Below are positions 47,997 through 49,169 of a stretch of 64,000 nucleotides of DNA, piece by piece; within the stretch, counting starts at the first letter, position 1; the number at the start of each line of letters is the position of its first letter. A model generated the notes under the pieces. That model did no database searches. It had not been told where the DNA came from and worked only from the letters and a program-made list of their open reading frames with translations. The position numbers and the translations under genes are program-made. The stretch spans positions 868,001 to 932,000 of the forward strand of contig CAJXVW010000001.1 of assembly GCA_913062645.1 (NCBI GenBank), written 5' to 3'. This DNA is from an uncultured Mycoplasmatota bacterium. Lineage in GTDB: Bacteria > Bacillota_I > Bacilli_A > Izemoplasmatales > Izemoplasmataceae.

Positions 47997-48025
47997 TTGA
48001 CAAAAAACGGAAACTACGGTATCAT
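47997..48025 (+). promoter_or_regulatory. Promoter of the DUF134-NifX operon
   Basis: A perfect TTGACA (47997-48002) is 17 bases from TATCAT (48020-48025), starting directly after the upstream terminator. Confidence 0.8.
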
Positions 48026-48027
48026 TA

Positions 48028-48043
48028 ATGTGCATATGCACAT
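48028..48043 (+). promoter_or_regulatory. Palindromic operator at the DUF134-NifX promoter
   Basis: ATGTGCATATGCACAT is a perfect 16-bp palindrome that begins 2 bases after the -10 and covers the expected start site. A helix-turn-helix repressor bound here would block transcription. The first gene's DUF134 domain is the obvious candidate; autoregulation is inferred. Confidence 0.65.
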
Positions 48044-48055
48044 AGGAGTGATGCC

Positions 48056-48763
48056 ATGAACCAATCACGCAAAAAGCGTTATGCCCGTCGCCTGGACGCC
48101 AGCCGACATTTCAAGCCGCAAGGCGTACCGCGCAGTGAACTGCGCGTGCAACGGGTGGAACTGGATGAGTTCGAAGTGATCCGCCTGATCGACATCGAAG
48201 GACTGAACCAGATCGACGCCGCAACGGAAATGGAAGTCTCCCGAGCCACGGTTCAACGGCTGCTTGCCAGCGGACGGAAGAAGATCGCCACGGCGATTCT
48301 GGACAACTGTGCACTGGAGATCACCAATAGCATCTACAACATCAAACTAAAAGGAGAAAACAAGATGAACATCGCCGCCAAACCCACCAAGATCATCGCC
48401 TTTCCAACCAGTGACAGAACGACCATCGACGGTCATTTCGGCCACACCAAGGAGTTCGCCATCTACACCGTTGCCGACAACACCGTAAGCGACATCGGCT
48501 ACGTCACCCCACCGCCGCATGAACCCGGCGTACTGCCGCGTTTCCTCGCCGATCAGAACATCGACGTGATCGTCACCGGCGGCATGGGCCAGCGCGCCGT
48601 CAGCTTGTTCGAACGACACGGCATCGATGTCATCCTTGGCGCCAACGGACGAATCGACGTCAATCTCAACGAATATCTCGCCGGATTTCTCGATTCCACA
48701 GGCAGCAGTTGCGACCCGCACGACGGCGATCATCCGCACCATCACGAACATCACCACGAGTAG
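48056..48763 (+). CDS. Fusion of DUF134 DNA-binding domain and NifX/NifB-type domain with His-rich tail
   Basis: A 235-residue protein. Residues 1-90 are a DUF134 domain (DASRHFKPQGVPRSEL, EFEVIRLIDIEGLNQIDAATEMEVSRATVQRLLASGRKKIA contains a sigma-like helix-turn-helix). Residues about 104-215 form a dinitrogenase iron-molybdenum cofactor domain (DGHFGHTKEFAIY, VTGGMGQRAVSLFERHGIDVILG). The tail DPHDGDHPHHHEHHHE is likely metal binding. The two parts are usually separate genes. An internal AAAAGGAG at 48349-48356, 8 bases before ATG 48365, could also give the NifX domain alone. The family context suggests an iron-sulfur or molybdenum/tungsten role, not nitrogen fixation. Confidence 0.88.
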   Translation: MNQSRKKRYARRLDASRHFKPQGVPRSELRVQRVELDEFEVIRLIDIEGLNQIDAATEMEVSRATVQRLLASGRKKIATAILDNCALEITNSIYNIKLKGENKMNIAAKPTKIIAFPTSDRTTIDGHFGHTKEFAIYTVADNTVSDIGYVTPPPHEPGVLPRFLADQNIDVIVTGGMGQRAVSLFERHGIDVILGANGRIDVNLNEYLAGFLDSTGSSCDPHDGDHPHHHEHHHE

Positions 48764-48776
48764 AGGAGGAATTACC

Positions 48777-49169
48777 ATGCGCATCGCCGTCCCCACCGAA
48801 GGACAAACCAAAGAAGCACCCGTCAGCCCCCATTTCGGACGTTGCGATTACTATTGCATCTACGATTCGGAAACGTTGGCGTTTGATTTCGTCACCAATC
48901 CGTTCGTCAAGGAAAACGCAGCCGGCAACAAAGCGGCCGGTTTGTTGCACGATCATGCGGTTGATTTTGTGATTGCCCAAGAAATCGGCAGCAAGGCCCA
49001 ACAAACGCTCAACAAACTGCAGATCAAGACCTTCCACAGTAAGTCGGAGGGATCGCTGATCGATCAAATTTACAAGTTCATGGAACGAGATCTACCGGAA
49101 TTGACGAAAGGCACCAAGGACAACAAGCACGATCATGTTCATCACGAAGCACACGAGCACAATCATTAA
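48777..49169 (+). CDS. NifX/NifB-type dinitrogenase cofactor domain protein with His-rich tail
   Basis: A 130-residue single-domain protein of the dinitrogenase iron-molybdenum cofactor biosynthesis superfamily (MRIAVPTEGQTKEAPVSPHFGRCDYYCIYD, AAGLLHDHAVDFVIAQEIGSKAQQTL). The tail HDHVHHEAHEHNH is histidine rich, like that of the upstream protein. GAGGAGG precedes ATG 48777. The pair is co-transcribed from the operator-bearing promoter. These proteins bind metal-sulfur clusters in many non-diazotrophs; the exact job here is unknown. Confidence 0.9.
   Translation: MRIAVPTEGQTKEAPVSPHFGRCDYYCIYDSETLAFDFVTNPFVKENAAGNKAAGLLHDHAVDFVIAQEIGSKAQQTLNKLQIKTFHSKSEGSLIDQIYKFMERDLPELTKGTKDNKHDHVHHEAHEHNH

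Follow-up and report, generated by a model that had tools for sequence, protein, structure and literature searches.

The gene at 48056..48763 on the + strand of the window, by which we mean the whole 64,000-nucleotide stretch analyzed here, encodes in a single open frame a protein of 235 aa that joins a DUF134 domain to a NifX-fold domain. On balance, we favor the reading that this protein is an autoregulatory one-component regulator responding to metal or sulfur, and that a free NifX-type protein is made from the same gene. The first-pass annotation had described two normally separate proteins that are joined here. The joined frame is indeed real, with both domains above their Pfam cut-offs, and a frame error joining two genes was ruled out by the identical joined frame in independent assemblies of the family. 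The fusion as such is not unusual, however, as we collected 75 distinct fused ORFs.

Residues 5-87 (48068..48316, +) matched PF02001 (DUF134) with 59.0 bits against a gathering cut-off of 27, and contain a helix-turn-helix resembling region 4 of sigma70. Residues 121-208 (48416..48679, +), which include an HFGH motif, matched PF02579 (Nitro_FeMo-Co) with 72.6 bits against a gathering cut-off of 26.3. Sequence and fold matches of this second domain in the PDB were TM1816, PH0822, NifX and ORP (Foldseek: 2yx6, 1o13, NifX 9ian and ORP 2wfb). The AlphaFold2 model consists of two compact domains, with the DUF134 helices at residues 36-47, 52-59 and 63-82, separated by a disordered linker (pLDDT below 50 at residues 101-108). 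A DNA-binding-type domain and a presumed sensor domain in one chain are the architecture of a one-component regulator. The proposed one-component metal-cluster sensor is upheld to this extent, together with a conserved candidate operator at the gene's own promoter (see below); that the NifX-fold domain acts as the sensor is what we infer.

The designation "NifX-type" holds as a statement about the fold, but the protein clearly missed the cut-off of the NifX equivalog TIGR02663 (22.8 versus 112 bits). The cut-off of the MrpORP equivalog NF041136 was also missed (98.8 versus 450 bits), the match being confined to the Di-Nase part. The window genome (G000; 1.99 Mb, two contigs) falls in the family of 'Candidatus Izemoplasma/Izimaplasma', the name borne by the closest loci in a public collection, and contains only two PF02579 genes, the fusion and the gene downstream of it, both in the fusion operon. 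Since the NifX cut-off was missed and just these two genes are present, we discarded a true NifX or nitrogenase role, and a nitrogenase-cofactor function of the window protein is unlikely. C86 and C219 are its only cysteines, so that a full cluster could form only in a dimer, with histidine ligands or by non-covalent binding. The N-terminal cysteines found in other DUF134 proteins are missing from the orthologs, and neither C219 nor the HFGH motif varied in the alignment examined; C219 is the one conserved cysteine of a C-terminal tail containing many histidines (48710..48760, +).

Several features of the locus go beyond the first-pass annotation, namely a sigma-70-like promoter, a 16-bp palindrome and a second NifX-fold gene downstream. 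The promoter (TTGACA-17 nt-TATCAT, 47997..48025, +; 11 of 12 matches) lies directly 3' of the terminator that ends the transporter operon upstream, and its arrangement recurs upstream of the orthologs. Directly 3' of the -10 box is the perfect palindrome ATGTGCATATGCACAT (48028..48043), our candidate operator, followed by AGGAG (48044..48048, +), the ribosome-binding site of the full-length protein as judged from its sequence. The second, separate NifX-fold gene (48777..49169, +) encodes 130 aa with a His-rich tail, has its own Shine-Dalgarno sequence (AGGAGG at 48764-48769) and presumably belongs to the same operon as the fusion gene. About ten of the ortholog loci likewise have a second NifX ORF of this kind close to the fusion.

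The first-pass annotation had also proposed an internal ribosome site. Exactly as claimed, AAAAGGAG is located within the linker codons at 48349..48356 (+), 8 nt before the in-frame ATG at 48365. This is a functional spacing for a Shine-Dalgarno sequence, and the ATG lies at the domain border. The predicted short product, starting at Met104 (48365..48763, +; supported by conservation), would be the free NifX-fold domain of 132 aa. An SD-like string precedes the border ATG in 17 of 17 orthologs. It is weakest (GGTGAG) in L064 of genome G013, whose NifX motif is also degenerate (FEELKEF for HFGHTKEF), so that in this ortholog the internal start and the sensor domain seem to be degenerating in parallel. 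Most other DUF134-NifX fusions share the string and the junction ATG, and an in-frame ATG is present at the NifX-fold start in 61 of all 75 fusions.

An SD:anti-SD duplex of -8 kcal/mol or stronger was predicted for 50 of the 61 junction ATGs versus 17 of 296 other in-frame ATGs of the same genes, counts that are indicative, as the loci are related and the sample is not random, although the effect is large. When synonymous codons were permuted within genes (2000 runs), 24 of 61 such duplexes were expected and 38 of 61 was the maximum. Separate permutation tests gave z values of -3.6 for the 17 orthologs and -6.3 for 42 other fusions, and in both groups the observed mean duplex strength was matched by 0 of 2000 permutations. 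The junction glycine codon was GGA in 15 of 17 orthologs (113 of 274 elsewhere) and in 36 of 44 other fusions (426 of 1196 elsewhere), an excess for which binomial P values were computed. The linker peptides differ among fusions (KGE, KGD, KGA, KGV, KEN, EGG), yet the DNA keeps an AAAGGAG-like string (AAAGGAG or AAGGAGG). The RNA around the internal SD and ATG is essentially unstructured (-1 kcal/mol). Codon permutation and the comparison with other ATGs both indicate that selection at the DNA level keeps the internal start conserved beyond coding needs, which bears out the proposed ribosome site. Judged by this conservation, the gene should also make the NifX-fold domain alone, from a hidden second start.

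The candidate operator is conserved as well. Exact GTGCATATGCAC occurs once in the window genome, at the fusion promoter. Its CATATG core is present at the promoter in 17 of 17 orthologs, and the exact 12-mer in 15 of them. Within 100 bp upstream, CATATG was found for 51 of 56 other fusions and 39 of 68 unfused DUF134 genes versus 26 of 559 control genes. Most other DUF134 promoters carry a sister palindrome with the consensus ATTGACATATGTCAAT; often its TTGACA is the -35 box, or it lies directly 3' of the -10 box. A protein bound at either position would block RNA polymerase, which supports repression. We predict that the palindrome is the family-wide operator of DUF134 proteins, and its conservation at DUF134 promoters points indirectly to sequence-specific DNA binding by this domain. 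In the 5' leader, the palindrome can form an RNA hairpin (computed), but since copies are also found at non-leader positions, overlapping the -35 box of other promoters, action as a DNA site is favored. The open-access papers covered by our search contained nothing relevant on the function of DUF134/UPF0251/COG1342 or on either palindrome. The palindrome ATGTGCATATGCACAT after the -10 box and its sister ATTGACATATGTCAAT are new here as predicted DUF134 operators. Elsewhere, four unfused DUF134 genes (L006, L012, L014, L023) share a TTGACATATGTCAA promoter with a divergent gene for a thioredoxin-like protein (CxxC), which is another candidate target. In Clostridia, standalone NifX-fold genes (L057, L049, L176) have GACATATG[CT]C sites upstream, which suggests a wider use of the operator.

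Targets in trans were searched for by a family-wide scan with the palindrome pattern followed by reading of the flanks. In relatives, the palindrome lies upstream of an operon encoding Mrp-type antiporter subunits, NuoH-, NuoB-, NuoC- and NuoD-like proteins and Fe-S/flavin subunits. The 12-mer with at most one mismatch was present within about 330 bp upstream in 12 of the 18 genomes having the first gene of this operon (chance expectation about 0.0006 per locus); the fusion-bearing genomes G001, G019 and G027 had no palindrome site at this operon. Co-occurrence of the operon with the fusion clade was observed in 15 of 16 genomes (Fisher P 8e-9), and at genus level both are present in the same 6 of 17 (P 8e-5); these P values are optimistic, as the loci are phylogenetically related. 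The NuoD-like large subunit (P0003) is devoid of paired CxxC nickel-ligand motifs. Their absence fits Mbx/Mbs and not a hydrogenase, and we therefore rejected a NiFe-hydrogenase and prefer to call the complex Mbx/Mbs-like. The first gene of the operon (about 300 aa; L182:326-1258, homologs L190-L208) is conserved in the 18 genomes and matched no Pfam or NCBIfam family. About 50-90 bp before it (L182-L206), there is a second conserved motif, TTCGTATACAAAATA then CTTGTATG, found even in regions that lack the CATATG palindrome; it is possibly the site of another regulator or a core promoter.

The palindrome was found once each at two further targets: a NifX-MinD-MinD-NifX operon in G003 (L099) and a gene for a CoA-disulfide-reductase-like flavoprotein in G023 (L096, P0004). 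The former (G003:C174) encodes ferredoxin-type Fe-S MinD ATPases behind a GTGCATATGCAC-like operator, in a genome where the fusion is the sole DUF134 match. A DUF134-NifX-MinD-MinD operon with the same type of ATPases occurs in G023 (L100, G023:C87). Taken with the Mbx/Mbs-like operon, these targets make sulfur or Fe-S status the probable signal. The window genome itself lacks the Mbx operon. Its palindrome matches with up to two mismatches (36) were no more common than those of the reversed control (41), and all of the dozen weak matches inspected were inside open frames, so that a regulon in this genome was dismissed. Here, the regulator probably controls its own operon only, and the wider regulon that we infer is derived from relatives.

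How the fusion arose bears on whether the internal start matters. The phylogenetic survey that had been proposed as a check yielded 17 close orthologs, the window gene included, and over 55 additional fusions from other Bacillota and Treponema. The orthologs (the window, 15 other genomes of its family and one genome from another family of the class) form one clade in the DUF134 tree with a support of 100/100. The other fusions are from the window's family, other Bacilli, Lachnospirales, Oscillospiraceae, Syntrophomonadaceae and Treponema, and the architecture is not rare. The fused state requires at least 7 changes on the DUF134 tree, or 14 by parsimony (a rough estimate from 91 columns only). 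A NifX gene directly follows an unfused DUF134 gene in 31 of 72 loci, with overlaps of 4-23 nt in about ten of them, and repeated stop-codon loss between two coupled genes is the simplest history. All this would also suit an ordinary fusion, in which the internal site is a functionless leftover and the long protein alone matters. We consider this unlikely, since the Shine-Dalgarno sequence is kept at synonymous sites over deep divergence, whereas relics do decay: in a second fusion clade of the same family (11 members), the junction ATG was kept in 2 and lost in 9, which means that a start without use can be lost. In one further locus (L111, G400:C28:14040-14315), the fusion ORF that contains the DUF134 match is interrupted by a single in-frame TAA, and this is possibly a fusion recently broken or re-split. 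That the LKGEN linker is conserved for the sake of the protein, the likeness to a Shine-Dalgarno sequence being an accident of Lys-Gly-Glu coding, appears improbable to us. The peptide I[KQ]LKGE is invariant within the 17 orthologs, and permutation tests on single genes are weak, as KGE mostly encodes an SD-like string. Nevertheless, residues 101-108 are unstructured in the model, other fusions keep the DNA motif despite other peptides, GGA is preferred over its synonymous codons, and the in-frame ATG is always present beside the motif in the ortholog clade.

The remaining alternative concerns the full-length protein, which could be mainly a carrier or store of metal or clusters, with DUF134 regulating only its own amount and no wider regulon. 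This would agree with the autoregulatory site being the only one found in the window genome and with NifX-fold relatives such as IssA and MrpORP, whose function is to store or carry Fe-S (PMC5524996, PMC6345978). Against it stand the trans operators that 12 relatives have at the Mbx/Mbs-like operon, and the near-perfect co-occurrence of this operon with the fusion clade; we rate this alternative as improbable.

In the regulator that we favor, the DUF134 helix-turn-helix, probably as a dimer, would bind ATGTGCATATGCACAT beside its own -10 box and repress the fusion-nifX operon. Sensing would fall to the C-terminal NifX-fold domain and its Cys/His tail, and binding of the ligand, most likely an iron-sulfur or metal-sulfide species, would alter DNA binding. 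Since the ligands of those NifX-fold proteins that have been studied are Fe-S, Mo-Cu-S or thioferrate species (PMC6345978, PMC5524996), a metal-sulfide ligand is our leading guess. Ribosomes would also start at Met104 via the internal Shine-Dalgarno sequence, a start backed by conservation, so that one mRNA may yield the free NifX-fold protein too; this form may be a cluster carrier or a competitor of the sensor for the cluster. The operator appears, in sister species, to have been placed also on the operon of the Mbx/Mbs-like membrane oxidoreductase. A more far-reaching proposal, which we consider possible but doubtful, is that DUF134 autoregulators read ATTGACATATGTCAAT (or TGTGCATATGCACA) and that the NifX fusions sense iron-sulfide or sulfur as a counterpart of SurR, with the internal start tuning the sensor. 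If true, the Izemoplasmataceae fusions would be the bacterial SurR counterpart that controls an Mbx/Mbs-like sulfur-respiration complex, and the free cluster-binding domain made from the internal start would tune the sensor.

A family of so far undescribed function can thereby be given a predicted role, together with a predicted DNA site and a set of candidate targets. The fusions offer a natural case, replicated many times, in which the sensor domain of a regulator appears to be produced on its own from the regulator gene. They also suggest how fermentative relatives of mollicutes may control their Fe-S/sulfur homeostasis and Mbx/Mbs-type energy metabolism.

Among known systems, the predicted DNA-binding proteins of the DUF134/UPF0251 family (PF02001, COG1342) share with the window protein the helix-turn-helix, NifX-fold neighbors and a palindrome with a CATATG core at the promoter, but the window protein is fused, lacks the typical N-terminal cysteines and uses GTGCATATGCAC in place of the typical TTGACATATGTCAA. 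In MrpORP (DVU2109, Desulfovibrio), a NifX-fold (Di-Nase) domain with an HFGH motif is likewise joined to another domain, a type of fusion reported to have several independent origins (PMC6345978). Its partner is a P-loop NTPase instead of a DNA-binding domain, and the cysteines of its CxHFGHCE motif are absent from the window protein. The thioferrate storage protein IssA/SipA of Pyrococcus belongs to the same fold family (IPR003731), has a single cysteine in its tail and is induced by sulfur in Pyrococcus/Thermococcales (PMC5524996). It is, however, a lone domain with a cationic, glycine-rich tail, while the window protein has a DNA-binding domain attached and a His-containing, acidic tail (GSSCDPHDGDHPHHHEHHHE).

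SurR of Thermococcales is autoregulatory, and its targets include Mbs/Mbx and CoA/NAD(P)H sulfur reductase (PMC12162507, PMC4463584). Autoregulation and the overlapping target types (Mbs/Mbx, sulfur-reductase-like) make a notable parallel, which would be one of function and not of homology, sulfur reduction by the Mbx/Mbs-like complex being putative in these bacteria. SurR is an unrelated protein and senses by a CxxC disulfide switch in its winged helix-turn-helix; with C86 and C219 alone, the window protein has no such CxxC in its DNA-binding domain. As in the long and short forms of SpaO and similar internal-start pairs, one gene would give a full-length and a C-terminal protein (PMC13059759), but here the long product is a predicted transcription factor, of which the short one would comprise the presumed sensor domain.
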